A stretch of 32,372 nucleotides of DNA from NCBI GenBank assembly GCA_028696185.1, contig JAQVHL010000020.1:1-32372 (forward strand), given 5' to 3'. The DNA comes from Halothiobacillaceae bacterium (GTDB lineage: Bacteria > Pseudomonadota > Gammaproteobacteria > Halothiobacillales > Halothiobacillaceae). Made by a program: the position numbers and the translations under genes. The notes under the pieces are model-generated. The model did no database searches. It was not told where the DNA came from and worked only from the letters and a program-made list of their open reading frames with translations. Below, one piece after another: positions 7,246-27,986 of this stretch; the first letter of the stretch is position 1; each line of letters begins with the position of its first letter.

Positions 7246-8412
7246 TCACAGCGGCGGCAAGCCACCGTTATCCGTATCGGCCCCCAGGCCATCGCTCGCC
7301 ATGGCCTGGGAATTGAGCGTATCGGCCATTTCCTCGGCCATTCCTGCACCGAAACTCATGCGCCATTCAAGGTTGGTCTTGGAGTCGGCGTTACGCAGGG
7401 CTTCTTCCCGGCTGATTTTCTCGCTCTTCCACAGGGCATGAAGCGACTGATCGAAGGTCTGCATGCCCGCCATGCGGTTTTGTTCCATGGCCGCCTTGAT
7501 CTCGTCCACACGCCCACGCCGGATCAACTCCTGAACGAAGGGGGTATTGAGCATGATCTCGACGGCGGGCACACGCTTGCCATTGAGACCCGGAATAAGA
7601 CGCTGGGAAATGATGGCACGCAGGTTGAGAGAGAGGTCCATCAGCAACTGGTCACGCGCCTCGGGCGGGAAGAAGCGGATGATGCGGTCCAGCGCCTGGT
7701 TGGAGTTGGTCGCATGCAGGGTGGAAAGGCACAAGTGGCCGGTATCGGCATACGCCAGGGCATGCTCCATGTTGGTCTTGTCACGAATCTCGCCGATCAT
7801 GATGACATCCGGCGCCTCACGCATCGCTTCCTTCAGCGCATTGGCATAGCTCAGGGTATCCATGCCCACTTCGCGCTGGTTGACGATGGAGCGTTTGTGG
7901 CTGAAGGCGAACTCCATCGGGTCTTCGATGGTGAGGATGTGCCCCGGCATGGTGAGGTTACGGTGCTCAACCATGGAGGCAAGCGTCGTGGACTTGCCCG
8001 AACCGGTGGCCCCCACAACCAGGATCAGGCCCGTTTTGAGGGTAATGAGCTCGTTGAGGCTATCGGGCAAGCTCAACGAGCCGACATCCGGCACATCGGT
8101 TTTGATGAAGCGGATGACCATCGCCACCTCACCGCGTTGCACGAAGATATTGACGCGAAAACGTCCCAGATGAGGGTAGGACAGGGCCAGGTTGAGCTCA
8201 AGGTTGTCCTCGAAGCGTTCGATCTGTTCGGGGGTCAAGACACTATAGGCCAGGGAGCGAACCTGCCCCGGCATCAGTTTGTCCCGCCCGATGAAGCGAA
8301 TCTCCCCCTCGATCTTGACCGCCGGCATCGTGCCGGTGCTGAAAAAAAGGTCGGAACCGCCCTTCTCGGCCATCAGTTTGAGGAAGGGTTCAAGATTCAG
8401 CGTGGTTTCCAT
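7246..8412 (-). CDS. PilT/PilU-family type IV pilus retraction ATPase (second PilU-like copy)
   Basis: This 388-aa secretion ATPase has the PilT/PilU layout: an N-terminal PAS-like domain (GGSDLFFSTGTMPAVKIEGE), Walker A GATGSGKSTTL, an Asp box (ILTIEDPMEF), Walker B (PDVIMIGEIRD), a His box (LCLSTLHATNSNQALDRII) and a PilU-type C-terminal tail beyond the MQTFDQSL segment. It is related to, but clearly diverged from, the PilU-like protein encoded just upstream (8479-9651), and the last ~30 residues differ completely. PilU proteins assist PilT in pulling back type IV pili under load. The gene ends the pilT-pilU transcript, 66 bases behind its neighbour, and faces xthA. Confidence 0.88.
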   Translation of the reverse strand: METTLNLEPFLKLMAEKGGSDLFFSTGTMPAVKIEGEIRFIGRDKLMPGQVRSLAYSVLTPEQIERFEDNLELNLALSYPHLGRFRVNIFVQRGEVAMVIRFIKTDVPDVGSLSLPDSLNELITLKTGLILVVGATGSGKSTTLASMVEHRNLTMPGHILTIEDPMEFAFSHKRSIVNQREVGMDTLSYANALKEAMREAPDVIMIGEIRDKTNMEHALAYADTGHLCLSTLHATNSNQALDRIIRFFPPEARDQLLMDLSLNLRAIISQRLIPGLNGKRVPAVEIMLNTPFVQELIRRGRVDEIKAAMEQNRMAGMQTFDQSLHALWKSEKISREEALRNADSKTNLEWRMSFGAGMAEEMADTLNSQAMASDGLGADTDNGGLPPL

Positions 8413-8478
8413 GGTGCGTCCAGCGTTCAGGTATTACGTGGTCGGGTTTGGCGCGCCGTATAAAGCGCTGGGGCAAGA

Positions 8479-9651
8479 CTACCTCACCAGACCGCCCATT
8501 TTCTTGTCCTCGTCCTCGACGATTTCCATGTCGCCAGCTTCGGACATGAGGTCGCGCGTGCGCGCCCGCTTGCTGTTGAGCTTGATGTTGATGCGCAGAT
8601 CGTTGACGGAGTCCGCATTGCGCAGGGCCTCCTCGTAACTGATCTCGCCGGTTTCATACAGCTCGAACAGATGCTGGTCGAAGGTCTGCATGCCATGCTC
8701 GCGCGAGCGCTTGATGAGCTCCTTCATCTCATGCACCTTGCCCTGGAAGATGAGGTCCGCCATCAAGGGCGTGTTGAGCATGACTTCCACCGCCGGCACA
8801 CGACCATTACCATCTTCGCGCCGCACCAGTCGCTGGGACACCACGCCCTTGAGGTTCAGCGAAAGATCCATCAGCAGCTGCGAGCGACGCTCCTCGGGGA
8901 AGAAGTTGATGATGCGGTCCAGCGCCTGGTTGGTGTTGTTGGCGTGCAGTGTGGACAGACAGAGGTGACCGGTTTCGGCAAAGGCGATGCCGTAGTTCAT
9001 GGTCTCGCGGTCACGTATCTCGCCGATCAGGATTACATCCGGGGCCTGACGCAGGGTGTTCTTCAGCGCGATCTCGTAGCTGTCGGTATCCACACCGACC
9101 TCGCGCTGGGTGATGATGCAGCCCTTGTGCCGGTGCACGAATTCGATCGGATCCTCGATGGTGACGATATGCCCCTGACTGTGTACGTTGCGGTAATCGA
9201 CCATCGCCGCCAGCGAAGTGGACTTACCCGAGCTCGTTGCGCCGACGAAAATCACCAATCCACGCTTGGTCATGGCGATGTCGCGCAAGATGGGAGGCAA
9301 ACGCAGTTCCTCGAAACTGGGGATTTCCGACTGGATCATGCGCAGGACCATGCCCACGCTGCCGCGCTGAGTGAAAGCGTTTACACGAAAACGTGCCACG
9401 CCCGGCAGGGAAATGGCGAAGTTGGCCTCGTGATGCGCCTCGAATTCGGCGGTCTGCTTGTCGTTCATGATCGAACGGCACAGCAGTTCGGTGTGCGTGT
9501 TGCTCAAGCCCTGATTGGTCAGCGGGGTGATGACGCCGTTGAGCTTGACCGACGGCGGAGCGCCGGCGGTGATGAAAAGGTCGGAGGCGTTTTTTTCCAC
9601 GACCCGCTTGAGCAAGTCCTGGATGTAACTGGCGGCTTGTTGTCTGTCCAT
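8479..9651 (-). CDS. pilU: Type IV pilus retraction ATPase PilU
   Basis: The 390-aa protein is the closer of the two copies to Pseudomonas PilU. It has KNASDLFITAGAPPSVKLNG near the start, Walker A GATSSGKST (a variant of the usual GATGTGKST that keeps the GKST core), IVTIEDPIEFVH, Walker B DVILIGEIRD, CLSTLHANNTNQALDRIINF and a C-terminal acidic tail. PilU is an accessory ATPase that works with PilT in pilus retraction. The ATG at 9651 is preceded by AAGGCAGA; a longer reading adds 21 Arg-rich residues with no family support. It lies 31 bases after pilT, so co-transcription is likely. Confidence 0.93.
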   Translation of the reverse strand: MDRQQAASYIQDLLKRVVEKNASDLFITAGAPPSVKLNGVITPLTNQGLSNTHTELLCRSIMNDKQTAEFEAHHEANFAISLPGVARFRVNAFTQRGSVGMVLRMIQSEIPSFEELRLPPILRDIAMTKRGLVIFVGATSSGKSTSLAAMVDYRNVHSQGHIVTIEDPIEFVHRHKGCIITQREVGVDTDSYEIALKNTLRQAPDVILIGEIRDRETMNYGIAFAETGHLCLSTLHANNTNQALDRIINFFPEERRSQLLMDLSLNLKGVVSQRLVRREDGNGRVPAVEVMLNTPLMADLIFQGKVHEMKELIKRSREHGMQTFDQHLFELYETGEISYEEALRNADSVNDLRINIKLNSKRARTRDLMSEAGDMEIVEDEDKKMGGLVR

Positions 9652-9682
9652 GAATCTGCCTTGTCTTTTACGTCGCCTGGTT

Positions 9683-10723
9683 TCAGAAATCGGCCTTGTT
9701 CTGCGCCGCGGCACGCGCCGAATCGCGGGTAATCACGCCGCGCGCGACCAGATCCTTGAGATTCTGATCCAGGGTCTGCATGCCCAGCGACTGACCAGTC
9801 TGGATCGAGGAGTACATCTGCGCGATCTTGTTTTCGCGGATGAGGTTACGGATCGCCGGGGTACCGAGCATGATCTCGTGCGCAGCCACGCGACCGCCGC
9901 CGATCTTCTTGAGCAGGGTTTGGGAAATGACCGCGCGCAGCGATTCGGAAAGCATCGCGCGGACCATTTCCTTTTCCGCCGCCGGGAACACGTCGATGAT
10001 GCGGTCGATGGTCTTGGCCGCAGAGCTTGTGTGCAGGGTGCCGAACACCAAGTGACCGGTTTCCGCGCCGGTCAGGGCCAGGCGGATGGTTTCCAGGTCA
10101 CGCATCTCACCGACCAGGATCACGTCCGGGTCTTCACGCAGGGCCGAGCGCAGCGCGTTATTGAAGCTGTGGGTATCGCGATGTACCTCGCGCTGGTTGA
10201 TCAGCGCCTTCTTGCTCTGGTGCACGAATTCGATCGGATCCTCAATGGTGAGGATGTGCGAGTATTCGTTCTCGTTGATGTGGTTGACCATGCCCGCCAG
10301 GGTGGTGGATTTGCCCGAGCCGGTCGGCCCGGTCACCAGCACGATGCCGCGCGGGTACATGCAGATATCGCGGAAGACCTTCGGCGCGTTCAGGTCATCC
10401 AGCGAAAGCACCTTGGTCGGAATGGTACGGAACACCGCACCGGCACCGCGGTTCTGGATAAAGGCGTTGACACGGAAGCGCGCCAGATTCGGCACTTCGA
10501 AGGAGAAGTCCGTTTCGAGGTTGTCCTCGTACTCCTTGCGCTGCTTGTCGTTCATGATGTCGTAAATCATGCTGTGCACTTCCTTGTGCTCCAGCGGAGG
10601 GGCGTTGATTCGACGGATGTCGCCGTCCACACGGATCATGGGAGGCTCGCCCGAAGACAGGTGCAAATCGGATGCCCCGTTCTTTACGGTAAAGGCAAGT
10701 AGGGTTTCAATATCCATGGCCAT
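9683..10723 (-). CDS. pilT: Type IV pilus twitching motility ATPase PilT
   Basis: The 346-aa hexameric motor drives retraction of type IV pili for twitching, DNA uptake and surface sensing. It shows NGASDLHLSSGEPPMIRVDG, Walker A GPTGSGKSTTL, HILTIEDPIEFVHQ, Walker B DVILVGEMRD, FGTLHTSSAAKTIDRIID and the PilT hallmark AIRNLIREN near the C-terminus. An internal ATG at 10717 could also serve as start. It is divergent from yggS, an arrangement found in many Gammaproteobacteria. The intergenic region has a TATAGT element facing pilT about 70 bases upstream, without a clear -35. Confidence 0.97.
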   Translation of the reverse strand: MAMDIETLLAFTVKNGASDLHLSSGEPPMIRVDGDIRRINAPPLEHKEVHSMIYDIMNDKQRKEYEDNLETDFSFEVPNLARFRVNAFIQNRGAGAVFRTIPTKVLSLDDLNAPKVFRDICMYPRGIVLVTGPTGSGKSTTLAGMVNHINENEYSHILTIEDPIEFVHQSKKALINQREVHRDTHSFNNALRSALREDPDVILVGEMRDLETIRLALTGAETGHLVFGTLHTSSAAKTIDRIIDVFPAAEKEMVRAMLSESLRAVISQTLLKKIGGGRVAAHEIMLGTPAIRNLIRENKIAQMYSSIQTGQSLGMQTLDQNLKDLVARGVITRDSARAAAQNKADF

Positions 10724-13386: not shown

Positions 13387-14229
13387 ATGAACGAGCCCCA
13401 ACCTCACCCCATCGACGTGCTGGCTGAACTCAGACGCCGGCTCGAACAATGCGAACGGGAAAAGCACGATCTGGAGCTGATGCTTCAGACCACCATCGAC
13501 CATGGTGACGCCATCGAGGAACAGCTCTGCGAGGCCAATCGACAGCTGGAAATCGAGATCGGCGAACGCCTGCGCGTCGAGGAAAGCCTCAACGCCCTGC
13601 TGCGCGCTCTGGCACAACAGAAAAAAGATCTGGAACTGCTGGTGAAGCTGCTCTCCGAGCACGGTGACGAACTTGACATCCAGTGGATAGAAAAGCTGCG
13701 CCGCCTTGAGGAAGAAGCCCGCCACGACGCCCTGACCGGTCTGCCCAACCGCCGCGCGCTGGGCGAAGTCCTGGAGCGCGAATGGCGAGACGCGGTACGC
13801 TCCGACCAGCCCCTATCCCTGCTGCTGTGCGATGTCGATCACTTCAAGCGCTACAACGACACGCTGGGGCATCCGGCCGGCGACAAATGCCTGCACGAAG
13901 TGGCGCAATGCCTGCGCACCGCGCTGCTTCGTCCGCGCGACAGCGTGGCGCGCTACGGCGGTGAGGAATTCTGCGTCATCCTGCCAGGCACCGACCGCGC
14001 GGGCGCACGCGAAGTGGCCGAAGTCTTGCTTACCAAGGTAGCCGCCCTTGGCATGGTGCACCCCGACTCCCCCTACGGCTGCGTGACCCTGAGCATAGGC
14101 ACAGCCAGTTGCCGCCCGCGTGCGGCCGGGGAAAGCCCGGTGGAGCTGCTGGCGCGTGCCGATCAGTCGCTCTACCGTGCCAAGCAGAAAGGGCGCAACC
14201 GCCTCCACCAGCATGAGGACGAATCGTGA
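13387..14229 (+). CDS. Diguanylate cyclase (coiled coil-GGDEF), SiaD-like
   Basis: The 280-aa cytoplasmic protein has an N-terminal coiled coil (about 10-112) and a C-terminal GGDEF domain (113-275). Active-site features are HDALTGLPNRR, the metal-binding CDVDHFK (from residue 148) and GGEEF (191-195). The inhibitory I-site RPRD (182-185) lies exactly five residues before GGEEF, so product inhibition is expected. It makes c-di-GMP from GTP. There is no transmembrane or sensory domain. Like Pseudomonas SiaD, a coiled coil plus GGDEF encoded beside a kinase-like, a STAS and a PP2C gene, it is probably controlled by protein binding to the coiled coil. The stop overlaps the next start (ATCGTGAGC). 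Confidence 0.93.
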   Translation: MNEPQPHPIDVLAELRRRLEQCEREKHDLELMLQTTIDHGDAIEEQLCEANRQLEIEIGERLRVEESLNALLRALAQQKKDLELLVKLLSEHGDELDIQWIEKLRRLEEEARHDALTGLPNRRALGEVLEREWRDAVRSDQPLSLLLCDVDHFKRYNDTLGHPAGDKCLHEVAQCLRTALLRPRDSVARYGGEEFCVILPGTDRAGAREVAEVLLTKVAALGMVHPDSPYGCVTLSIGTASCRPRAAGESPVELLARADQSLYRAKQKGRNRLHQHEDES

Positions 14230-14804
14230 GCGAAACCCTGGGTGATTTTCTGAGCGAGCGCGACTGTGGTGAACACCTCCTGCTGTCTTTCTCCAAAGGC
14301 TCGCTGCCGCTCAAGGAGCGCTGGCGCAACAACAGCCTGACGGCCGACTTCCTGGCGGATTACGCCATCACCTTCTTCCCGGCCGGGCGGGGCGACGATA
14401 CGCGAGCGCTCAAACGCCAGCGGGAAATCAAGGACAGCGTGAGCTACATCGCCAATGAGCTGCTGGAAAACGGCCTCAAATATCACGAAGGCGGTGCGGC
14501 CCACGACCTGAACATCCGCTTCGAGATTCACAGCGACCGTCTGGTTATCTCCCAGACCAACGTGACCGGCGCGTCACGTGCCGAGCGTCTGCGCCATCTG
14601 GCGCGCGAATTGCTGGAAGAGGACATCGACACGCTGTTCCTGCAGCGCCTGGAAAACACAGACGAGACCAGCGCCGGCCTGGGTTTGATTACCATCCTGC
14701 ACGATCATGGTGCAGCACTGGCCTGGCGCCTGAGTCCGCTCCCCAATGCGCTGCACGCCGTGACAACCCAGGCCACGCTGATCCTGAACCCGGAGGAGGA
14801 ATGA
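14226..14804 (+). CDS. ATP-binding regulator of partner-switch type (SiaB / Slr1658-like)
   Basis: The 192-aa cytoplasmic protein has features of a GHKL-type ATPase: an N-box (NELLEN at 77-82, followed by GLKYHEGG) and a glycine-rich GLGLI (151-155). This resembles the slr1658 / SiaB family of serine-kinase or anti-sigma-like regulators encoded beside STAS proteins. By analogy it would phosphorylate the STAS protein encoded next door and so set its binding state. The start is GTG at 14226, overlapping the cyclase stop by 4 bases; the ORF ends by overlapping an ATG of the STAS gene. Assignment rests on the motifs and on context; kinase activity is inferred. Confidence 0.75.
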   Translation: MSETLGDFLSERDCGEHLLLSFSKGSLPLKERWRNNSLTADFLADYAITFFPAGRGDDTRALKRQREIKDSVSYIANELLENGLKYHEGGAAHDLNIRFEIHSDRLVISQTNVTGASRAERLRHLARELLEEDIDTLFLQRLENTDETSAGLGLITILHDHGAALAWRLSPLPNALHAVTTQATLILNPEEE

Positions 14805-14806
14805 CC

Positions 14807-15163
14807 ATGTCGGACGCGCCTGCGCCCATCGTCGGCGAAAACCACCGCGCGCTGTTCGATCCCGCGCAGGGCGTCGCCCGGATCGAAGGCAGCTTCCGCC
14901 TCAACGGCCTGGAGGAATACCGACCGCTGATGCAGGCCCTGCTCCAGCTCTGCGAACAATGCGATCAGGTGACCCTGGATCTGCGTGCGCTGGACTTCCT
15001 CAACAGCTCGGGCATCGCCATGCTCTCGAAGTTCGCGCTCGAAATGCGGGCGCGCGATGCACTGAAACTGAGCATCCTCGCCTCGGATAGCATTCCCTGG
15101 CAGGGCAAATCGCTCAAGAACATCCAGCGCCTGTTGCCGACGCTGGAACTGCGCTTCGAGTAA
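14807..15163 (+). CDS. STAS-domain anti-anti-sigma-type protein (SiaC / Slr1659-like)
   Basis: This ~118-aa protein is a single STAS-like domain. The conserved loop is LDLRALDFLNSSGIAMLSKF, where the Ser pair before Gly is the expected phosphorylation site of STAS partner-switch proteins. Such proteins bind their kinase when unphosphorylated or dephosphorylated, and in the SiaC case bind the diguanylate cyclase to activate it. I prefer ATG 14807 because AGGAGG ends 7 bases upstream; ATG 14801 (two residues longer) would sit almost on the ribosome site. It is followed after 5 bases by the phosphatase gene, as expected of one operon. Confidence 0.82.
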   Translation: MSDAPAPIVGENHRALFDPAQGVARIEGSFRLNGLEEYRPLMQALLQLCEQCDQVTLDLRALDFLNSSGIAMLSKFALEMRARDALKLSILASDSIPWQGKSLKNIQRLLPTLELRFE

Positions 15164-15168
15164 GAAGC

Positions 15169-16815
15169 ATGCCCGCCGCCCCGTCGGAGTTCACCACGCT
15201 GCGGCAGGCCTACCCTACCACGCTCGCCCGGCAGCTCCTGCTACCCACGCTGGCCTTCTTTGCCCTGGTCATGGGCGGCCTGGTGCTGTTTCTCACCACG
15301 CACTACAGTTCGCGCATAAAGCACCAAACCGAAACCCAGCTCATCCAGACCGCCCAACGCGTGTCCGAGGTGATGCGCGCCCCGGAAACCGCACACACTG
15401 AAATGCTGAGCACGCTGCTGCAAACGCAGGCGCAACGGGACGATTTGCAGTGGGTGCTTCTGGAATACCGCCACTCGCCGCCCGAACGCCCCCGCTGGCA
15501 AGGCATCGCCCACACCGAGGGACAACTCCCGCTGCCGGATGCCACCCGTTTGCAGGCCGCACGGGAGGGAAGCGCCTCACTGAAACGGATCAGCCAAGGC
15601 GGACAAACCCACCTGAGCTATCTGCTTCCGCTCCCCGACAGCAACGGAACCCCCTCGCGCGCCTTGCTCGGAGTGATGAATCTGAGCGCGGACATGGAAC
15701 GCGACGAGCGCGAAACCATCCTCGTACTGGGCGTCGCACTGCTCGGCCTGTTGCTGGGCGGGTTCGCCCTCTGGCAGGTGCTGACCCGACAGCTGGCCCC
15801 ACTGCACCGCATGGGCGAACTGGCGCGCGACATTGCCCGAGGCGAACACACGCGGGTACTCGACCTGCAACAGCTACGCGCCGGTAATCTGGAAATGCAG
15901 CAGATGATCGAAGCCGTACACCACATGGCGGAGCGGATGGTCGATCTGGTCGGGGATCTCGAAGCGCGCGTAGCGGAAAAAACCGCCGATATCCGCCACC
16001 TCAACGAGCAACTCCACTCGGAAAACCGCCGCATGGGTGCGGAGCTGGACATACAGCGCCATCTGCATGAAATGCTGCTGCCACGCCCGGAGGAGCTCGC
16101 CGCCCTGTCCGGTCTTGACGCCGCCCTGCTCTCGCGGCCTGCACAGGAAGTGAGCGGGGATTACCTGGATCTGTTCCCCCGCCAGGACGGAGCGACCCTC
16201 GCCATGGGGGATGTCACGGGCCACGGGCTGGAAAGCGGCGTCGTGATGCTGATGACCCAAAGCATCCTGCGCGCCGCCCTCCTGGACGAAACGGCGGACA
16301 ACGCCCAGCGCCTTGAACGGCTCAACCGCGCCCTGTACGACAACCTGCGCCGTGCCGGGATCGAACGCAATCTCAGCCTGTGCCTGCTCGATTTCCGCCC
16401 TCAGGGAGAAGGCGCTCGCCTGAGCGTTACCGGCCAGCACGAAACCCTGCTCATTGCCCGCGCCGACGGGCGCCTGGAAACCCTGGACACCGACGATCTG
16501 GGCTTTCCGCTGGGCCTGCTCGATGACATCGCCCCCTTCATCGACCAACGCCACATCGAGCTTCAGGCAGGCGATGTCGTCCTGCTGTACACGGACGGCG
16601 TGACCGAGGCGGAAAATCCCCAGGGCGAATTCTACGGCCAGGATGGCCTCGCCCGCGCCCTTCTGGAAAACCGCCACCGGCCCGTACAGGCCTTGCTGGA
16701 CGCCCTGCTCGAAGACATCGACCGGTTTGGCGGCGGACGCCCCCAACAGGACGACATCTCATTGATTGCGCTGAAATCTCACGCTCACTCACGCAATAAA
16801 AAGCCGGTTTTTTAA
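15169..16815 (+). CDS. Membrane HAMP-PP2C (SpoIIE-type) serine phosphatase, SiaA-like
   Basis: The 548-aa protein has a membrane segment at about 22-44, a ~135-residue periplasmic sensor region, a second membrane segment (183-206), a HAMP domain (207-260), a coiled coil (260-300) and a PP2C/SpoIIE phosphatase domain. Metal-binding motifs are VSGDYLDLF (D331), MGDVTGHGLESG (D348), LLYTDGVTEAEN and QQDDISLIAL. It most likely dephosphorylates the STAS protein encoded just upstream in response to an external signal, the role of SiaA in Pseudomonas. The periplasmic part is not a domain I recognise. It closes the four-gene signalling operon; no clear terminator follows. Confidence 0.9.
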   Translation: MPAAPSEFTTLRQAYPTTLARQLLLPTLAFFALVMGGLVLFLTTHYSSRIKHQTETQLIQTAQRVSEVMRAPETAHTEMLSTLLQTQAQRDDLQWVLLEYRHSPPERPRWQGIAHTEGQLPLPDATRLQAAREGSASLKRISQGGQTHLSYLLPLPDSNGTPSRALLGVMNLSADMERDERETILVLGVALLGLLLGGFALWQVLTRQLAPLHRMGELARDIARGEHTRVLDLQQLRAGNLEMQQMIEAVHHMAERMVDLVGDLEARVAEKTADIRHLNEQLHSENRRMGAELDIQRHLHEMLLPRPEELAALSGLDAALLSRPAQEVSGDYLDLFPRQDGATLAMGDVTGHGLESGVVMLMTQSILRAALLDETADNAQRLERLNRALYDNLRRAGIERNLSLCLLDFRPQGEGARLSVTGQHETLLIARADGRLETLDTDDLGFPLGLLDDIAPFIDQRHIELQAGDVVLLYTDGVTEAENPQGEFYGQDGLARALLENRHRPVQALLDALLEDIDRFGGGRPQQDDISLIALKSHAHSRNKKPVF

Positions 16816-16833
16816 ATTACCCTGTCCGTGGGA

Positions 16834-16861
16834 TTGTCGCGCCCGTCTCAGCTGTTAGAAT
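16834..16861 (+). promoter_or_regulatory. Promoter candidate for the cellulose acetylation genes
   Basis: TTGTCG (16834-16839) and an extended -10, TGTTAGAAT (16853-16861), are separated by 16 bases from hexamer to hexamer. They lie about 65 bases before the SGNH start. The -10 region is identical over 11 bases to the element before rhlE. Confidence 0.55.
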
Positions 16862-16927
16862 CAGGCGGCGGAATGCGTCATCCGTCTATCGAACCCTCAC
16901 TATTCAATACAAAAAAGGAACGCCTCG

Positions 16928-17581
16928 ATGTCCAGCGGTGCACTCGTCGGCCTTGCTCTCCTCGTCATCGGTGACAGCCATCTGGCCACGCCCTCCTACC
17001 TGATCGGCCCCCTGCATGACCAGCTCACCGAGCAGGGCGCCACGGTTCACAGCATCGGTGTCTGCGGCGCGAATGCGGCCGACTGGGTCAAGACCTCGCC
17101 GGGCGAATGCGGACGCGCCGAGCGCTCGGGCAATGCCGCCGCACAGAAGCTCAACGAAGGGGCCACCACCACCCCGATCAAGGATCTGATCACCAAGGAC
17201 AAACCGGATGCGGTCGTTGTGGTCATCGGCGACACCATCGGCTCCTACAACAACCCGGAATTCCCCAAGTCCTGGGCTTACCAGCAGGTCACCGCCCTGA
17301 CCAAGGCCATTGCCGCCACGGGAACGGCCTGCTACTGGGTCGGCCCGGGCTGGAGCAACAACCCCGGTCGCTTCAACAAGACCAACGAACGCGTTGAAAC
17401 CGTCAACGCCTTCCTTGCCGAAAATGCAGCGCCCTGCACGTATATCGACTCCACCCGGTTTTCGCAGCCCGGCGAGTGGAAAACCATCGACGGGCAGCAC
17501 TACACCGGCGGCTTCTACAAAAAATGGGGCGCGGCCATTGCCGACGCCATCGTGAACAACCCGCCGAAGAAAGCCCAATGA
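16928..17581 (+). CDS. SGNH/GDSL-type hydrolase, WssF-like cellulose acylation protein
   Basis: The 217-aa protein has the SGNH hydrolase block I, GDSHL (15-19), near its start, a central VVVVIGDTIGSYN, a WVGPGWSNN segment and a C-terminal DGQHYTGGF with the Asp-x-x-His pair. These supply the Ser, Asp and His of an esterase or acyltransferase. Its position before AlgF-, AlgI- and AlgJ-like genes matches WssF of the Pseudomonas fluorescens wss operon, which acts in cellulose acetylation. AAAGGA lies 7 bases before ATG 16928. The N-terminus is hydrophobic but lacks basic residues, so export is uncertain. The stop overlaps the next start (ATGA). Confidence 0.72.
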   Translation: MSSGALVGLALLVIGDSHLATPSYLIGPLHDQLTEQGATVHSIGVCGANAADWVKTSPGECGRAERSGNAAAQKLNEGATTTPIKDLITKDKPDAVVVVIGDTIGSYNNPEFPKSWAYQQVTALTKAIAATGTACYWVGPGWSNNPGRFNKTNERVETVNAFLAENAAPCTYIDSTRFSQPGEWKTIDGQHYTGGFYKKWGAAIADAIVNNPPKKAQ

Positions 17582-18243
17582 AGCACCCACGCACACTCAC
17601 CCTGCTGGGCCTGGGGCTCTGCCTTGCCCAGGGCAGCACACAGGCCGCGCCCCAGCTCTATGAAACCGGCCCAGCCGAAGACGCCGCCTTCGTACGCTTC
17701 ATCGACGCCCTGCCGACGGCGCTGGATGTCCGTGCCGGCAAGGGGGCCCACATTGCCCTCACGCCCGAGGAACGCGCCACGACCTGGCAGCCCGTCAAGG
17801 CCCGTGCCGCACTTGGCGCCACCCTCGAACAGGGCGGACGCAGCGAAAAAGTAGAGCTGAGCGTCGAGCCCAGCGAATTCGTCAACGTGGTCGCCGTGCC
17901 GGACGGTGCCGGCTGGCGCGTCGAAATCGGTCGGGAAAAGCCCGACGACTTTTCCGCCCACAAAGTTTCTCTCGGTCTGCTCAACCTGGACACCGCCTGC
18001 TCCCGCGCGAGCCTGCGTGTCGCCGGCAAAACCGTGATGATCGTCGAAGGCGTGGCCCCGCGGGAGACTCGCCGTCGGCAAATCAACCCGGTCGCCCTCT
18101 CGGTCGATCTGCTCTGCGATGGACAGCCCAGCGGTAGCCCGCTCGACCTGGGCAGCCTGCGCGCGGGTGAGCGCTGGACCCTGCTGGCTCACCCGAGCCC
18201 CGCCGGGACACGCCTGCTGCCCATCCTCGACCGGATGCCTTGA
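17578..18243 (+). CDS. wssG: AlgF/WssG-like periplasmic acetylation protein
   Basis: The 221-aa protein has a signal peptide (basic start, hydrophobic core, cleavage near TQA-AP at 22-24) and begins after it with LYETGPAEDAAFVRFIDA, closely resembling the mature start of AlgF. AlgF is a periplasmic adaptor in alginate O-acetylation, and WssG is the equivalent in cellulose acetylation. Two AlgF-like beta domains are plausible (mature residues to ~110, then DKVSLGLLNLD-type residues to the end), but no catalytic motif is expected. It overlaps the SGNH gene by 4 bases, so the two are translated together. Confidence 0.75.
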   Translation: MKHPRTLTLLGLGLCLAQGSTQAAPQLYETGPAEDAAFVRFIDALPTALDVRAGKGAHIALTPEERATTWQPVKARAALGATLEQGGRSEKVELSVEPSEFVNVVAVPDGAGWRVEIGREKPDDFSAHKVSLGLLNLDTACSRASLRVAGKTVMIVEGVAPRETRRRQINPVALSVDLLCDGQPSGSPLDLGSLRAGERWTLLAHPSPAGTRLLPILDRMP

Positions 18244-18342
18244 GCCCTGCAGCGGGTCTGACCCACGCGCCGCGTGACTCCGACCCGCCTGCTACGCCCC
18301 AGCCCCTCCGCCCGATCCATCTGCCGTCACGAGGCGCCGCGC

Positions 18343-19743
18343 ATGGTCTTTGCGTCGCTCGAATTCCTGAGCCTGTTTTTTCCGCTTTTCCTGCTCAGCT
18401 ATGCCGTCACACCCAAATCCTGGCGCAACCTGACCCTGCTGCTTTTCAGCTGGGCCTTCTACGCCTGGTGGAGCCCGGCCTTTCTGTGGGTTCTCAGTGG
18501 CGTCACCGTGCTCGCCTGGGGGGCGGGTCTGGCATTGGGCGCCACCCAGGGCGAACAGGCGCGCCGCTGGCTTCTCGCCCTGTCCATTGCGGCGCTCGCC
18601 GGGCTCCTGGCCTTCTACAAATACGGTAATCTTGTCGCTGAATCACTCATCCTTCCCCTGGCCCGCGCCGAAGGCCATGAGCTGAGCTGGGAGCGACTGA
18701 TCCTGCCCATCGGCATTTCCTTCATCGTGCTGCAGGCCATTTCCTATATCGTCGACGTGTACCGTCGAACCGTGCATGTCGAACGCGATTTCATCGGTTT
18801 CGCCGCCTATCAGGCCATGTTTTCACAGCTGATCGCCGGCCCCATCGTGCGCTACTCGCATGTCGAGAAAGAGCTCCACGGCCGCCCTTTCGACCTCCGG
18901 CACATTGCCTCCGGCCTGCGTTACTTCATGGTCGGGCTGTCGATGAAGGTCATCATCGCCGACACCCTGGCCCCCGTAGCGGACGCCTGTTTTGCCCAGA
19001 GCGCCCCCAGCTTCGCCGACGCCTGGCTGGGCACCTTCGCCTATGGCATGCAACTGCTGTTCGATTTTGCCGGTTATAGCGCCATGGCCATCGGCATCGG
19101 CCAGATGCTGGGCTTCCGGTTCCCGGAAAACTTCGACTCGCCCTATATCTCACGCTCCATCCAGGAATTCTGGCGCCGCTGGCACATGACCCTGGGCAGC
19201 TGGTTGCGCGACTACCTGTACATTCCCTTGGGCGGCAGCCGTGTCGCCGCCTGGCGGGTGTATCTGAACCTGATGCTCATCATGGGCATCTCGGGCCTGT
19301 GGCACGGCGCGGACAGCCTGAACTTCCTGCTCTGGGGCCTGCTGCACGGGCTGGCCATGGTCATCCAGCGTTTCTGGGAACGTCACGGCGGCCCTGCACT
19401 GCCCGGACTCCTTGCCTGGGCACTGACCATGCTATTCGTGTTCTGCGCCTGGGTGCTGTTCCGCGCGCCTGACCTGCCGGGCGCCTGGGCCATGTATCAG
19501 GGGCAGCTGGGCCTGCACGGTTTTTCGCTGAGCGAGGAAATCGCCCTCGTCCTGCGACCTGTGCATCTGCTCACTCTGATGCTTGCCAGCCTCGCTGCCA
19601 CCTGGCCGCTCTGGCGCCCCCATGTCCGCCTGCCGGCTGCCATCGGTGAAGCCCTGGTTTTCTGGCCCATCCTGGGTCTGTTCGCCTCTGCCGCCCTGAT
19701 GTCCAGCCGAGGCGCTTCCCCCTTCCTCTACTTCCAGTTCTGA
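18343..19743 (+). CDS. wssH: MBOAT-family O-acyltransferase (AlgI/WssH-like)
   Basis: The 466-aa multi-pass membrane protein is of the AlgI type. It begins MVFASLEFLSLFFPLF, has FYAWWSP, and carries the MBOAT core RRWHMTLGSWLRDYLYIPLG (H281) and GISGLWHGAD with the catalytic His at residue 321, close to the position known in AlgI. It should pass acetyl groups from the cytoplasm across the membrane to the periplasmic SGNH partners for transfer to cellulose. The ATG at 18343 matches the family start; the frame is open to 18274, but the extra residues are Arg/Pro-rich without support. A gap of 99 bases separates it from the AlgF-like gene, and 4 bases separate it from the next gene. Confidence 0.93.
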   Translation: MVFASLEFLSLFFPLFLLSYAVTPKSWRNLTLLLFSWAFYAWWSPAFLWVLSGVTVLAWGAGLALGATQGEQARRWLLALSIAALAGLLAFYKYGNLVAESLILPLARAEGHELSWERLILPIGISFIVLQAISYIVDVYRRTVHVERDFIGFAAYQAMFSQLIAGPIVRYSHVEKELHGRPFDLRHIASGLRYFMVGLSMKVIIADTLAPVADACFAQSAPSFADAWLGTFAYGMQLLFDFAGYSAMAIGIGQMLGFRFPENFDSPYISRSIQEFWRRWHMTLGSWLRDYLYIPLGGSRVAAWRVYLNLMLIMGISGLWHGADSLNFLLWGLLHGLAMVIQRFWERHGGPALPGLLAWALTMLFVFCAWVLFRAPDLPGAWAMYQGQLGLHGFSLSEEIALVLRPVHLLTLMLASLAATWPLWRPHVRLPAAIGEALVFWPILGLFASAALMSSRGASPFLYFQF

Positions 19744-19747
19744 CGCC

Positions 19748-20923
19748 ATGTCCCAGGAATTCCACGACGCACTGATACGCAGCAAACGGCAATCCTGGAT
19801 TTTCATCCTCTGCTTTACCCTGCTGCTGGGCGGTTTCGTCGCCAGCCTGCTGCTCGCCTGGAGCGACGGGGCCATGACACGCAGCACGCAGAATGGCTGG
19901 AAAGATTTCGCTCATGGCGCGCCCATGCGTGCGCTGGCCGAGGATCTGCGCCAGACACCGCTCGCCAACTGGCTGGGGCGCAAACAACGCGAACTGGGCT
20001 GGCTGGCGCTGGACGACCTGGGGCCGCGCGTCAGTGCCGGCTGCCCCGGCTGGCTGTTCCTGAACGATGAACTGACCGTGCATCCCGATGGCGCACATCA
20101 GGCCGAAGCACGCGCCCGGATAGTGCAGGAGATTCACCACGACCTGCGCACGCGCGGCAGTCAGCTGCTGGTCGTGCTGGTGCCGGACAAAAGCCGGGTC
20201 GAAGCGGCGCACGGCTGCGCCCTGCCCCGGTCGCCCCGCCTGGAGGCACGCTACGAAGACTGGAAAAATCGCCTCGACGCCGCCGGCATCCCGTGGGTGG
20301 ACCTGCTGCCGGTATTGACGCAGGTACACCAGAACACCGGTGCGGCCTTCGACCGCAGCGATACGCACTGGAATATCGACGGCGCCCGCGCCGCAGCCGA
20401 TGCGACGGCGCGAGAGCTGAAAAACCTGGGCTTTGCTCCCGCCACGCCAATCCACTTCAAAATCGATACCGGCACCCCACAAGCCCGTTGGGGCGACCTT
20501 GTACGCCTGGCCGGCCTGGAGCAACTGCCGGAATCCTGGCGCCCTGCCCCGGACACGGTGCCGCTGGTTAACATTACCTCACAGGCTCCCGACGCCGCAG
20601 AGCTTGGGGCCGACGCTCTGTTCGGCGACAGCCAGGACAGCCGCGTGACTCTCGCCGGCACCTCGTTTTCGCGCAACGCCCATTTTGCCGACTTCCTGGC
20701 GGCCGCCCTGAATGCGGAGGTGGGCAACCTTGCTCGCGATGGCGGTGGATTCGCCCGCTCAATGCGCGATGTCCTCGAACAGGAACAGAGGGCGTCCCAG
20801 CCCACCCCCTGGGTGATATGGGAAATACCGGAACGAATGTTGCAGGAGCCTTTGACAGCAGAAGAAGAGAGCCTGCGCCGCCTGCTCAAAACCGGAGCGA
20901 CGGCACCGGTCCCAACCATGTGA
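19748..20923 (+). CDS. wssI: AlgX/AlgJ-like SGNH acetyltransferase (WssI-like)
   Basis: The 391-aa protein has an N-terminal membrane anchor (about 17-37) and a periplasmic SGNH-fold ALGX/AlgJ domain. Typical features are GCPGWLFLNDELTVHP, LVVLVPDKSRVEA, the catalytic DxH in SDTHWNIDG (D205, H207), a GDSQ segment and AGTSFSRN with the likely catalytic Ser. In alginate and cellulose systems these proteins transfer acetyl groups onto the polymer. It is the last gene of the acetylation group, and a strong hairpin without a T-run (20993-21011) follows within 90 bases. Which of WssI or AlgX it corresponds to cannot be told from motifs alone. Confidence 0.85.
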   Translation: MSQEFHDALIRSKRQSWIFILCFTLLLGGFVASLLLAWSDGAMTRSTQNGWKDFAHGAPMRALAEDLRQTPLANWLGRKQRELGWLALDDLGPRVSAGCPGWLFLNDELTVHPDGAHQAEARARIVQEIHHDLRTRGSQLLVVLVPDKSRVEAAHGCALPRSPRLEARYEDWKNRLDAAGIPWVDLLPVLTQVHQNTGAAFDRSDTHWNIDGARAAADATARELKNLGFAPATPIHFKIDTGTPQARWGDLVRLAGLEQLPESWRPAPDTVPLVNITSQAPDAAELGADALFGDSQDSRVTLAGTSFSRNAHFADFLAAALNAEVGNLARDGGGFARSMRDVLEQEQRASQPTPWVIWEIPERMLQEPLTAEEESLRRLLKTGATAPVPTM

Positions 20924-21258: not shown

Positions 21259-21629
21259 GCACAAGCCGGCTAAAAAACACGTTTGACCCCGAAAAAAGTT
21301 AGTGTTTCAATCCCCTATACTTATCAAGTTTTCAACTTACCCGCCGACAAACGCTCACTCAGCGTGTGCCCAGGGCAAGCTTGAAGGATGAACACACCTC
21401 GTGGGGGTTCCCCACACCGCCGAGCTGAGGGCAGGTGCATGATGCACCCCCTGCCCCGCTCTCGCCCCAGGGCGACCGATAAACGGCCCGGATAAGCATC
21501 CGCGACCGGTCGGGGCCTTGACTGAAGCTCGCCAGGGATGCCGTTTTCAGTCCCCTCGCCACATAGCGATGGCGTGGGTCGCGATGGATTGCGACATGAA
21601 CCTTGAAAACCGCAATCAGGCAACGTCGC
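21259..21629 (+). other. 371-base non-coding leader rich in hairpins, upstream of the bcs genes
   Basis: I see no convincing gene here. It holds the second 13-bp repeat (21301-21313), a -10-like TATACT (21316-21321) and several stems: GTGGGG with CCCCAC (21401-21415); GGGCAG (21429-21434) with CTGCCC (21451-21456), continued by GTGCA/TGCAC around TGA; and GTCGC with GCGAC (21578-21595). I looked for a c-di-GMP-I (GEMM) riboswitch: AGGGCAAGC followed by TTGAAGG is faintly similar, but the required second half is absent. A transcribed, structured 5' leader to the bcs operon is plausible. Confidence 0.45.
21301..21313 (+). repeat. 13-bp repeat, copy 2
   Basis: Second copy of AGTGTTTCAATCC, 349 bases from the first and followed 2 bases later by a TATACT -10-like element. 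It lies in the leader before the second membrane protein paralogue. Confidence 0.6.
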
Positions 21630-22349
21630 ATGCACAGTATTCTGACATTCGCATCCATTGGGCTGGGCTTGGCGCTGACGCTACTGCTCGGCCCACAGTG
21701 GGGAATTCTCGCCGGACTCATCGCCTACCTTACCGGGCGCAATATGCAACTGAGCAAGGAGCTTCAACGGCTGCAGGCCCAGGTGGACAAAAACCTCAAC
21801 GAGCTCCCCGAACTGGTAGCCCATCTGCTGCGACAGCAGAATCAACCGGCACAAGACAGCCTTACCCCCACGCAGCAAGCCGCGCCGGAAGCACCCGCTC
21901 CTGCGGAGCCCGTATGCACCACGCCGCCCGTCGAGCAGCGCATCAGCGAGCTCGATCATAAGCTGGACCGCCTGCTCCATCGTCTGGAGCCCCCTGCCAC
22001 ACAGGCGCCCGCCGAGCCCCCGGAATCGGCCAGCACCGTGCAGAACGAAACCGAAGCCCCCCCGCCCGCACTGCGCGATCTGCTGGCGAAGATGGACGAG
22101 CTATTGCAACTGCATGCAGCCACCCAGACCGCGCCAAACCTTCCGGCTCCAGCACTGGAAGCGCAAGCCGCACAGCCCTTCGCGCCCCCACCGACTGCGG
22201 CTGCCCAGACACAAGCCCCCGAGGTTCCGCCACCGTCGAAAGTCACCGGCACGGATGGAGCCCGCGCCCCGTCCATCGACCTGCTGCGCGCCGAACTGGA
22301 CAAACTCACCCGCGAGCTGCGCGCGGAGCTGGGACGCACTGCGCACTAA
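21630..22349 (+). CDS. Membrane protein, paralogue 2 with Pro/Ala-rich tail and three helical motifs (unknown function)
   Basis: The 239-aa protein begins with the same hydrophobic module as the upstream 73-aa gene (LLLGPQWGILAGLIAYLTGR, then QLSKELQRLQAQVDK and LPELVAHLLRQQ). A long Pro/Ala/Gln-rich, probably disordered region follows, interrupted by three short amphipathic helices with the same rhythm: ISELDHKLDRLLHRLE, LRDLLAKMDELLQLH and IDLLRAELDKLTRELRAEL. No known family is recognised; BcsO/BcsH-type Pro-rich accessory proteins are only an analogy. It ends 6 bases before bcsA, so the two are surely co-transcribed. The start could also be TTG 21603 (nine residues longer); ATG 21630 matches the paralogue better. 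Confidence 0.75.
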   Translation: MHSILTFASIGLGLALTLLLGPQWGILAGLIAYLTGRNMQLSKELQRLQAQVDKNLNELPELVAHLLRQQNQPAQDSLTPTQQAAPEAPAPAEPVCTTPPVEQRISELDHKLDRLLHRLEPPATQAPAEPPESASTVQNETEAPPPALRDLLAKMDELLQLHAATQTAPNLPAPALEAQAAQPFAPPPTAAAQTQAPEVPPPSKVTGTDGARAPSIDLLRAELDKLTRELRAELGRTAH

Positions 22350-22355
22350 GCCATC

Positions 22356-24656
22356 ATGCTAAACCGTCTTCTGCCCTCCAGCACGTCGCTGGACAAACTG
22401 CTCGACCGTCGCGGACTGCTGTTCTGGATCGCGGGCCTCTTCACCCTGCTCTGGCTCGCGCATCTGCCGCTCACACGCGATGCGCAAACGGTAATGGCGG
22501 CCACCCTGGTCATCACGCTGTTCGTCATCATGCTGAGCATGGACCGTCTGGAAATCGCACAGGCGCGCCAGATCAAATACCTGCGTCTGCTGGCCATCCT
22601 CCTCGCTGCCTTTGTCAGCCTGCGTTACTTCTCCTGGCGCATCAACTACACCATCAGCTATCACGACCCGCTGAGCCTCATTGGTGCCTTCCTGCTGCTG
22701 GGCGCGGAAATCTACGGCCTGGGCATTTACCTGATCGGCGCCTATGTCAATTCCTGGCCAATCAACCGTAACCCGCCGCCGCTGCCGGAAGACGCAGATC
22801 AGCTGCCGACCGTGGACATCCTCATTCCCAGCTACAACGAAGCCCCCGAGCTTCTGGAGCTGACCCTGCTCGCGGCCACCCAGATCGATTACCCCCGGCA
22901 CCGCTTCAAGGTTTATCTCTGCGACGACGGCGGTACCGTCCAGCGCCGCAACACCCCGGCGCTGTCCACAGCGGCATGGAAAAGACACCACACGCTCAAG
23001 GCGCTGTGTGAGAAAGTCGGCGCAATCTACGTCACCCGCGAACGCAACGAACACGCCAAGGCCGGCAATCTCAACGCCGCCCTGCGCGATCATTGCGACA
23101 GCGAGCTGGTGCTGATTCTCGACGCGGACCACATCCCCACGGTGGACATCCTGCGCAACACGGTCGGCTTCTTCCTGCGCGACCCCAAGCTGTTCCTGGT
23201 CCAGACGCCGCACTACTTCATCAACCCGGATCCGCTGGAGCGCAACCTGCGCACCTACGAGCAGATGCCCAGCGAGAACGAAATGTTCTATACCGTGATC
23301 CAGCACGGCCTGGATTTCTGGAACGCCTCGTTCTTCTGCGGCTCGGCGGCCCTGCTGCGCCGCGAATATCTGGACAAAATCGGCGGCATCGCCGGTGAGA
23401 CCATCACCGAGGACGCCGAAACCGCCATGACCCTGCATGGGCTGGGCTACAACAGCGTCTACTACGGCAAGCCGATGATCGCCGGCCTGCAACCGGAAAC
23501 ATTCAGCGGATTCATCGTGCAACGCTCCCGCTGGGCGCAGGGCATGGTACAGATTTTCCTGCTCAAGAATCCCTGGACCCAACCGAAGATGAATATTGCC
23601 CAGCGCGTGGCCTACACCTCGTCGGTGTTTTTCTGGTTCTTCCCCTTCGCGCGCATGGTGTTCTTCATCGCCCCCGCACTGTACTTGCTGTTCTCGCTGA
23701 AAATCGTCGATGCGTTCCTGCCCTGGGATCTTGTGGCCTATGCCCTGCCGCATGTACTGGCCGCGATGATCCTCAGCAACATCCTGTACGGACGCACGCG
23801 CTGGCCGCTGATTTCCGAACTCTACGAAACCATCCAGTCCGTCCACGCCCTACCGGCGATCATCAACGTGCTGCGCCACCCGCGCTCACCAGCTTTTGCC
23901 GTAACCCCCAAAGGCGAGCGGCTGGAAGACAACTTCATCTCACAGCTCGCCCTGCCCTTTTACCTGATGCTGCTGCTGGACATCGTCTGCCTGATTGCGG
24001 GGGCAATACGCCTGGTCGTGGTGCCCGAGGACATAGGTGTCATCACCCTGACCATGGTGCTGACCGTGGTCAACATGATCTTCTCCATGGCCGCCATCGG
24101 CGTAATGCTGGAAAAATCGCAAAAACGCGCGGCCTACCGCATTCCCGCCCAGCTTTCCGACATCGCCGCCAGCGTACGGCTCGATACGCAGCGCGCCCCG
24201 GTACGCATTGTCGATCTCAGTCATGCAGGCGCCGGCCTGCTCAGCACGCAGAACCTGCCCAAGGGCGAGACCGTCCTGCTCAGCGTGGCCATACCCGCCT
24301 GGAAAGGCCGGCAGGTCGACATCCCCGCCCGCATCGTGCGCCACAAATACGCACGCAATCACCGCTGGGAGCTCGGTCTTTTGTTCGAGCCGGAAAACAT
24401 CGATCAGCAACGCGCCATCGTCGCGCTGGTCTACGGCGACAGCGACCTGCACCAGGCCAACCAGAACCGCCGCCAGCGCCGCATCGGGCTGGGCGAAGGC
24501 TTTGTCTTCCTGATGAAGACGGCCATCACCCGCTCCGGTGAAAACTTCCTGTTCCTGACCCGCGTGTTCCTGACCCGCGTGTTCCTGCACCGCCTGACGC
24601 AGCGCGCGCTGTCCCTCATTCCCTTCAAGATCAAGAACGCAAGGACTCCCTCATGA
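22356..24656 (+). CDS. bcsA: Cellulose synthase catalytic subunit BcsA (GT2-PilZ)
   Basis: The 766-aa inner-membrane protein polymerises UDP-glucose into cellulose and feeds the chain through its own membrane channel. N-terminal membrane segments (about 20-130) are followed by the GT2 domain: SYNEAPELLELT, CDDGG (189-193), LDADHIP (255-261), FFCGS (326-330), TED (351-353) and QRSRW (389-393). More membrane segments lead to a PilZ domain. RAAYR (591-595) and DLSHAG (620-625) keep the RxxxR and DxSxxG motifs that bind c-di-GMP, so c-di-GMP activation is expected. The C-terminus has a short duplicated segment (24551-24587). The stop overlaps bcsB by 4 bases. Confidence 0.97.
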   Translation: MLNRLLPSSTSLDKLLDRRGLLFWIAGLFTLLWLAHLPLTRDAQTVMAATLVITLFVIMLSMDRLEIAQARQIKYLRLLAILLAAFVSLRYFSWRINYTISYHDPLSLIGAFLLLGAEIYGLGIYLIGAYVNSWPINRNPPPLPEDADQLPTVDILIPSYNEAPELLELTLLAATQIDYPRHRFKVYLCDDGGTVQRRNTPALSTAAWKRHHTLKALCEKVGAIYVTRERNEHAKAGNLNAALRDHCDSELVLILDADHIPTVDILRNTVGFFLRDPKLFLVQTPHYFINPDPLERNLRTYEQMPSENEMFYTVIQHGLDFWNASFFCGSAALLRREYLDKIGGIAGETITEDAETAMTLHGLGYNSVYYGKPMIAGLQPETFSGFIVQRSRWAQGMVQIFLLKNPWTQPKMNIAQRVAYTSSVFFWFFPFARMVFFIAPALYLLFSLKIVDAFLPWDLVAYALPHVLAAMILSNILYGRTRWPLISELYETIQSVHALPAIINVLRHPRSPAFAVTPKGERLEDNFISQLALPFYLMLLLDIVCLIAGAIRLVVVPEDIGVITLTMVLTVVNMIFSMAAIGVMLEKSQKRAAYRIPAQLSDIAASVRLDTQRAPVRIVDLSHAGAGLLSTQNLPKGETVLLSVAIPAWKGRQVDIPARIVRHKYARNHRWELGLLFEPENIDQQRAIVALVYGDSDLHQANQNRRQRRIGLGEGFVFLMKTAITRSGENFLFLTRVFLTRVFLHRLTQRALSLIPFKIKNARTPS
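24551..24587 (+). repeat. 15-bp tandem repeat in the 3' end of bcsA
   Basis: The 15-base unit GTTCCTGACCCGCGT is present at 24551-24565 and 24566-24580, followed by a partial third copy (GTTCCTG). In frame it repeats FLTRV in the C-terminal tail of BcsA. It looks like a slipped-strand duplication that kept the frame. Confidence 0.85.
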
Positions 24657-26966: not shown

Positions 26967-27986
26967 ATGCACCGATTGCGCCGGGTTCTCGCACTGCTGA
27001 TCGGCCTTGTCAGCGCACCGCTTCATGCCGCTGTGCTCCCCGCCGACCAGTGGCAGGACTACCGGGCGCTGTTCGTAAGCCCGGACGGTCGCATCGTCGA
27101 TACGGGCAACCAGGGCGTCAGCCACTCCGAAGGGCAGGGCTATGGCCTGCTGCTGGCCCTGGCGGCGGAAAATCGCGCTGACTTTGAACGCATCTGGAAC
27201 TGGACCCGCAGCAACCTCCAGCGACAGGACAAACTCTTCGCCTGGCAATGGAGCCCGCGCCTCGACCCGCCCGTCAAGGACTGGAACAACGCCACGGACG
27301 GCGACCTGCTGATTGCCTGGGCACTGGCCCGCGCCGCCGCACACTGGCAGGTGCCGCAATGGCAGGACGAGGCCCGCACGATTGCCGTGCGCCTGCGCGG
27401 CACCCTGCTGCGCGAGGCCCCCTTCGGCCCGCTGCTCCTGCCCGGCCAGCAGGGCTTCGAGGAAAAGGGGAGTCTGCTCGTCAATCCAGCCTACTGGGTC
27501 TACCCGGCGCTGGCTGAGCTCGCGCGAATCGACCCCGAAGGCCCCTGGGAGGCCGTAAGCCAGAGCGGCCAGCGCCTGCTGCGTCTGACGCGCTATGGCG
27601 CAGCGGGGGTACCGCCGGACTGGATCCGCTTGCATGCGGACGGACGCCTGGCCCTGCCCGCCGAAAGCGCGCAGCGACGGCTCGGGTTTGAAGCCATTCG
27701 CGTGCCCCTCTATCTGTGCTGGGCCGGGTTGCACGACAATGCCCTCCTCGAAGGCTTCCTTCGCGCCTGGCCGGACGAAGGCGCCCCGGCCTGGATCGAC
27801 CTGAGCAACAGCGACCGGGCGGCTTATCCGCTTACCCTGTCGCAACGCGCCATGCGCCAGCTCGTGATCGACTGCCGGCAAGACCGACCGACCCAGGCCC
27901 TGCGCCTGAGCGCGGACGATTACTACGGAAGCACCCTGACCCTGCTGGCGCAACTCGCCCTCGCCCGACCCAAGAGCCTGCCATGA
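26967..27986 (+). CDS. bcsZ: Periplasmic endoglucanase BcsZ (GH8)
   Basis: The 339-aa enzyme has a signal peptide (MHRLRRVLALLIGLVSAPLHA) and a GH8 (alpha/alpha)6 barrel. The general acid Glu lies in VSHSEGQGYGL at residue 55, the same number as in E. coli BcsZ, followed by the conserved NATDGDLLIAWAL. It cuts beta-1,4-glucan, clearing misplaced chains and tuning cellulose output. AGGGAGA lies upstream of ATG 26967; the upstream frame from 26919 is inside bcsB and lacks a signal peptide. The stop overlaps the bcsC start (ATGA). Confidence 0.95.
   Translation: MHRLRRVLALLIGLVSAPLHAAVLPADQWQDYRALFVSPDGRIVDTGNQGVSHSEGQGYGLLLALAAENRADFERIWNWTRSNLQRQDKLFAWQWSPRLDPPVKDWNNATDGDLLIAWALARAAAHWQVPQWQDEARTIAVRLRGTLLREAPFGPLLLPGQQGFEEKGSLLVNPAYWVYPALAELARIDPEGPWEAVSQSGQRLLRLTRYGAAGVPPDWIRLHADGRLALPAESAQRRLGFEAIRVPLYLCWAGLHDNALLEGFLRAWPDEGAPAWIDLSNSDRAAYPLTLSQRAMRQLVIDCRQDRPTQALRLSADDYYGSTLTLLAQLALARPKSLP

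Follow-up and report, generated by a model that had tools for sequence, protein, structure and literature searches.

Among the described systems closest to the locus analyzed here, SiaABCD of Pseudomonas aeruginosa comprises a PP2C phosphatase, a GHKL kinase, a STAS-like protein (SiaC) and a coiled-coil cyclase with two stalk motifs (SiaD), which is activated by SiaC. The chemistry of SiaA, SiaB and SiaC has been described (PMC7647112); in the SiaC-SiaD structure T68 of SiaC is inserted between the stalk helices at S82/Q86, phosphorylation blocks this binding, and the two SiaC sites of SiaD are placed at S50 and S82 (PMC8457831). In the HptB-HsbR-HsbA-HsbD system of the same species a STAS protein also promotes cyclase activity, with a different wiring that sets it apart by its description (PMC7647112). 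BgrRSTUWV of Sinorhizobium meliloti is a partner-switching system of PP2C phosphatase, kinase and STAS protein which controls a cyclase and a (mixed-linkage) beta-glucan. The pair Slr1658/Slr1659, named after the Synechocystis proteins, is present in cyanobacteria, proteobacteria, Acidobacteriota and others; published work on slr1658 concerns iron recovery and Pgr5 (PMC7555055), and in the open literature searched no molecular output of the pair is known. In this work we have analyzed a stretch of 32,372 nucleotides from a Halothiobacillaceae bacterium (assembly GCA_028696185.1, contig JAQVHL010000020.1; hereafter the window), which carries at 13387-16815 a four-gene module with members of the slr1658 and slr1659 superfamilies. 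We describe its protein families, folds, conserved residues and operon order, and the co-occurrence of such modules with a repeated motif on the stalk of their partner enzymes, which is probably a docking site for the STAS protein.

The module and the repeated motif on the cyclase stalk

The four open reading frames (ORFs) of the module are all open, lie on one strand in the order D-B-C-A (cyclase, kinase-like protein, STAS protein and phosphatase) and are closely packed: D and B share the stop-start overlap GTGA, B and C the overlap ATGA, and 5 nt separate C from A. The genome (G000) measures 2.9 Mb in 112 contigs, of which C34 carries the window. The catalytic signatures of the module proteins could all be read from the translations. 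Protein D (13387-14229, + strand; 280 amino acids) consists of a coiled-coil stalk and a GGDEF domain, is a small GGDEF-only cyclase according to the domain search, and scores 160.6 bits with the SiaD model (cut-off 290). Its GGEEF sequence starts at residue 191 and the intact I-site RPRD lies five residues ahead, so that the combination of GG[DE]EF with RxxD five residues upstream, used here as the signature of an active diguanylate cyclase with product inhibition, is present (RPRDSVARYGGEEF).

Reading of the stalk of D revealed two copies of the motif DLExxLxxxxEHGDxIExxL. Copy 1 (DLELMLQTTIDHGDAIEEQL) is encoded at 13441-13569 and copy 2 (DLELLVKLLSEHGDELD), 53 residues further, at 13597-13728, both on the + strand, with 68.9 and 53.3 bits, respectively, in a hidden Markov model (HMM) of 44 residues built from module neighbours; true copies score mostly above 40 bits and the background mostly below 6, with few values in between. 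The motif strings were found in no paper of the open literature searched.

Distribution of the motif

The locus set comprised 80 named loci and the window, 81 in total, annotated with local HMMs. A gene for a motif-bearing protein is present in 67 of them, nearly always no more than about 1.2 kb away from that of the kinase, and the carriers are diverse: GGDEF enzymes, class III nucleotide cyclases, histidine kinases of both the hybrid and the simple type, PAS proteins and one CheW protein. The genome with the window encodes 53 GGDEF domains, and the motif is borne by only one of them, that of cyclase D. Among 57 relatives and 398 genomes of the phylum, strong matches occur solely in G000, G024 and G111, which are also the sole genomes of this set with the cyanobacterial-type kinase. 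In 194 cyanobacterial genomes the motif was detected in 29 and slr1658 in 37; all 29 motif genomes are slr1658-positive and none of the 157 slr1658-negative ones carries the motif (Fisher p=1.4e-27, with no correction for phylogeny). Motif and module also co-occur without linkage, which is what a tag for docking of a partner predicts: of the 41 cyanobacterial motif ORFs, 13 are separated from the kinase gene by over 5 kb, and these include both plain GGDEF enzymes and histidine kinases of large size. The motif is also carried by cyanobacterial PAS-histidine kinases of about 725 amino acids (G451:C98, G452:C1:5375450, G454:C16, G501:C134 and G591:C7) that are encoded far from any slr1658 gene where checked and are likely, judging by the shared motif, to be extra targets.

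The motif might instead be a dimerisation or signalling helix that docks nothing, with C acting on another part of D, such as its GGDEF domain, or with B in place of C binding the stalk. The motif does lie in a predicted coiled coil, and the spacings of its tandem copies, 53 residues in 28 cases, 60 in four, 25 in two, and also 67, 57 and 64 (the last two once each), could reflect coil register alone, those of 53, 60, 67 and 25, though not 57 and 64, being 4 mod 7. For a generic coil, however, one would not expect a restriction to genomes with slr1658 or, within the genome studied here, to a single GGDEF domain out of 53, and we regard this explanation, which must also account for the similarity in register described below, as unlikely. 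The spacing of 32 residues between the two SiaC sites of SiaD is 4 mod 7 as well; with so many of the 53-residue spacings being homologous, this agreement can be taken as a hint only.

Relation of the motif to the SiaC-SiaD contact

The cyclase stalks linked to SiaC genes in Halothiobacillaceae carry the sequence IxHSDRTExELxxANQRL. When whole stalks were compared with the motif HMM, ten SiaC-linked cyclases scored 5-11 bits in register and 20 other GGDEF stalks scored at most 1.7. In hhalign comparisons, for which the segments were picked by their SD pattern and the match was thereby somewhat favoured, the motif aligned with the Halothiobacillaceae SiaC-linked stalks at 17.95, the maximum of 200 column shuffles being 14.3, and these stalks aligned in register with those of Pseudomonas SiaD at 19.3. 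The motif thus resembles SiaC-linked stalks in register and is therefore read as a STAS docking site. The two copies in D differ from the SiaD type in sequence and spacing (EHGDxIE spaced 53 in the window, ARISDxYQ spaced 32 in SiaD), and a significant signal was obtained solely with the Halothiobacillaceae SiaC-linked stalks. On this comparison of sequences, homology between the motif and the SiaC site of SiaD is likely, not proven.

Following SiaABCD (PMC8457831, PMC7647112), from which phosphorylation, docking and the direction of control are taken over, we propose a partner switch from a membrane signal to cyclic di-GMP (c-di-GMP), with C docking on the stalk motifs of D. B would phosphorylate C on the serines of its NSSG sequence, and A, a membrane PP2C phosphatase sensing a signal across the membrane, would dephosphorylate C when this signal is present. 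Unphosphorylated C would dock at both HGD motifs in the stalk and straighten or dimerise it, switching on c-di-GMP synthesis within the limit set by the I-site; phosphorylated C could not dock and would release D. The c-di-GMP produced may act on the neighbouring BcsA among other receptors.

Several observations weigh against this proposal, which we nevertheless hold to be probable. Compared directly by hhalign with the Pseudomonas SiaD stalks, the motif gave no significant match, and the link to the crystal contact therefore runs through an intermediate group. The motif model itself came from module neighbours, and the cyanobacterial co-occurrence statistic ignores phylogeny. No motif protein was detected in 14 of the 81 loci (some contigs are cut) or in eight of the 37 slr1658-positive cyanobacteria; the latter (G553, G571, G581, G587, G607, G613, G636 and G649), in which slr1658 is above cut-off, must have other outputs or a diverged motif. 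Finally, kinase B of the window is the most diverged member of its family tree, with the longest end branch (1.22), so that its exact place in the tree is unsure.

Families and folds of the switch proteins

Kinase candidate B (14226-14804, + strand) belongs to the slr1658 superfamily of GHKL ATPases (NF047703; 166.5 bits, cut-off 100, and 166 in the whole-genome search). It stays below the cut-off of the cyanobacterial slr1658 equivalog NF052618 (172.7 bits, cut-off 200) and fails the SiaB family model NF038262 (18.5 bits, cut-off 85). The N-box NELLEN is found at residue 77 and the G-box SAGLGL at 149. Similarly, the STAS protein C (14801-15163, + strand) passes the slr1659 superfamily model NF047705 (118.3 bits, cut-off 100) and fails the SiaC model PF09345 (14.3 bits, cut-off 24.5). 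Its sequence NSSG occupies residues 68-71; across 54 relatives N68, S69 and G71 never vary and S70 is conserved in at least 90%. Ser69 aligns by eye with T68 of SiaC, so that NSS(G) faces N67-T68-S69, and Ser70 presumably corresponds to S58 of SpoIIAA; either serine (codons at 15005-15010, + strand) may be the phosphosite.

Searches of the PDB sequences with B and C by phmmer gave no useful match and a comparison of folds was therefore needed. The predicted models have mean confidence scores (predicted local distance difference test, pLDDT) of 95.7 for C and 92.2 for B. In the fold search the model of C matched SiaC first (Z 13.2, 113 residues aligned), the best other STAS protein reaching Z 11.5 with 100 residues. 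The model of B matched SiaB (6kko_A; Z 14.3, 154 residues) and UsfX (Z 13.8, 127 residues); as far as the prediction goes, B is closest to SiaB by aligned length, and SiaB and UsfX tie on Z. A fold shared with SiaB and SiaC says nothing on the function of B and C, and STAS and GHKL folds are also common to SpoIIAA/SpoIIAB and RsfB/UsfX, as would suit a classical partner switch in which C controls a sigma or anti-sigma factor and the cyclase is a mere neighbour. We consider this very improbable, since the conserved neighbour in the 67 loci is a motif-bearing signalling enzyme and not a sigma factor, and the fold of C matches SiaC better than SpoIIAA.

Phosphatase A (15169-16815, + strand), the proposed signal input, shows the motifs DVTGHG, TDGV and DDIS and a SpoIIE domain of 143.5 bits, over the cut-off; its HAMP match reaches 19.8 bits (cut-off 25) and it fails the SiaA equivalog (77.7 bits, cut-off 700). 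Residues ~46-180, between two transmembrane helices predicted by eye, have no Pfam match, and from this position they are probably the signal sensor, a domain without assignment.

The sequence-only reading of this locus had listed four tightly coupled genes in the order D-B-C-A at the positions given here, for a coiled-coil diguanylate cyclase with intact I-site, an N-box ATP-binding regulator, a STAS protein with Ser-Ser-Gly and a HAMP-PP2C phosphatase, and all of these are borne out, the HAMP domain at a score under its cut-off. It had also called the set a SiaABCD-like parts list with the regulator and the STAS protein nearer to Slr1658/Slr1659 than to SiaB/SiaC; the profile searches agree on the families, the four protein types are present, and "SiaABCD-like" is right as regards the fold of B and C. 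The duplicated motif on the stalk and the second such locus of the genome, described next, had escaped it.

The module as siaABCD of this genome was considered and rejected: SiaB- and SiaC-family genes in the order A-B-C-D sit in a second partner-switch/cyclase locus on contig C63 (L151:8251-11351), with a kinase of the SiaB family (209.1 bits against a cut-off of 85), a homologue of SiaC (89.8 bits, below the equivalog cut-off of 150), a coiled-coil cyclase with an HSD stalk and a PP2C gene in which CBS was matched weakly. The window module thus differs from SiaABCD in the failure of B and C with the SiaB and SiaC models, in its gene order and in the separate presence of these genes in the same genome.

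Recurrence of the module and exchange of its partners

The order D-B-C-A is found in 17 loci, all from proteobacteria of several families; it is therefore not a chance arrangement, and it is a standard of the lineage rather than a peculiarity of the window. Cyanobacterial loci, which share with the window a kinase and a STAS protein over the superfamily cut-offs, mostly combine A-B-C with another enzyme, and unlike in the window the motif partner is in most of them a class III nucleotide cyclase or a kinase and not a GGDEF enzyme. Mapped on the kinase tree, the type of partner requires no fewer than 8 changes, against a possible minimum of 3, and the partners have therefore probably been swapped during evolution. 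Two single open frames, one with three motifs, GGDEF and kinase (L066:8858-10573) and one with kinase and STAS protein (L126:13074-14078), are apparent natural fusions, which would fit a physical link.

In S. meliloti the genes at 459.7-466.5 kb of pSymB (L210) encode a GGDEF-EAL protein, a UbiE-like protein, a STAS-methyltransferase, a SpoIIE phosphatase and slr1658 and slr1659 members; this six-gene cluster lies near a GT2/GH26 polysaccharide cluster. From its make-up we infer that it is the bgr operon, which could not be confirmed, its locus tags being found in no open paper. Unlike the window module, it belongs to a separate branch of the kinase tree and has a STAS-methyltransferase gene and a GGDEF-EAL partner devoid of the stalk motif. 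With Bgr defined by L210, and hence by this identification, the window module stands outside the type, kinase B lying outside the rhizobial clade and D being GGDEF-only. The bgsBA region (L211), searched for slr1658 and slr1659, gave no matches.

Neighbouring genes and the cellulose output

Upstream of the module lie proC-yggT-yggU, named from translations, with D starting 37 bp past the yggU stop. Farther upstream, at 7246-10723 on the - strand, three tandem genes for PilT/PilU-like ATPases were recognized from translations; two such genes beside yggS-proC are usual.

Downstream, after a gap of 112 bp (16815-16928), the same strand encodes an SGNH/DUF459-like protein, whose gene opens the acetylation group (16928-17581; 20.6 bits, below cut-off), an AlgF-like acetylation protein (17578-18243; 27.9 bits, below cut-off) and, according to the domain search, an AlgI/WssH-like MBOAT O-acyltransferase (18340-19743) and a WssI/AlgJ-like acetyltransferase with an ALGX domain (19748-20923). 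They are followed by the cellulose synthase BcsA with a PilZ domain (RAAYR...DLSHAG; 22356-24656; TIGR03030 812.9 bits, cut-off 699) and, again by domain search, BcsB (24653-26947), the GH8 enzyme BcsZ (26973-27986, start codon not settled) and BcsC (27980-30055). An ORF of 248 amino acids right before bcsA (21603-22349) is proline/alanine-rich, with an N-terminal membrane segment and no Pfam match. The gap contains a sigma70-like promoter match (16834-16861, + strand), the sole one in the 10 kb scanned, where 1.3 are expected by chance. The idea that the module and the bcs genes form one transcription unit was dropped in view of this match, which is weak evidence.

The acetylation genes and bcsA with its PilZ site had been noted in the sequence-only reading, correctly, and from them it had drawn a dedicated local circuit, in which signal, phosphatase, STAS protein, cyclase and c-di-GMP mainly drive the adjacent BcsA through PilZ to give acetylated cellulose. 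The common strand, the short gap and the PilZ domain suit such a circuit, and related slr1658 modules in rhizobia are found close to genes for exopolysaccharide synthases (bcs in L006, GT2 in L004 and L210). According to Baena et al., as cited in PMC8457831 and PMC7647112, the S. meliloti system controls a c-di-GMP-activated beta-glucan. A polysaccharide output is therefore plausible for this type of module, by analogy with these rhizobial cases. The survey of genomes did not bear the dedicated circuit out: among 33 module-bearing genomes BcsA exceeds the TIGR03030 cut-off in one, that of the window, and the flanks of the other 80 named loci contain no strong BcsA match (L102 has a weak one of 69 bits). 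In addition, 53 GGDEF domains compete within the genome, and the promoter-like match, weak as it is, separates the two units. We therefore find a circuit devoted to BcsA rather doubtful; an output of the window module through BcsA, and thereby on cellulose, is possible. On a Rhizobium plasmid (L006:2514-16499), a module of the rhizobial slr1658/slr1659 branch lies ~2 kb upstream of bcsA, followed by bcsB and a GH8 gene.

Conclusions

The four-gene set at 13387-16815 represents a variant of an already known type, and its new, testable part is the repeated docking tag on the cyclase stalk. We are inclined to extend the proposal and to view slr1658/slr1659 as a general switch, for which a portable coiled-coil tag (DLExxLxxTxEHGDxIExxL, which cyclases usually carry in tandem) would make any enzyme that bears it, encoded near or far, a target of the same phospho-STAS protein, SiaC/SiaD being one offshoot. 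The control of SiaD by SiaC is thus suggested to be an instance of a more general way of docking. With a sequence tag that marks the probable outputs, targets can be listed in any genome and tested, and a poorly understood switch of several bacterial phyla becomes accessible to experiment through its docking tag.

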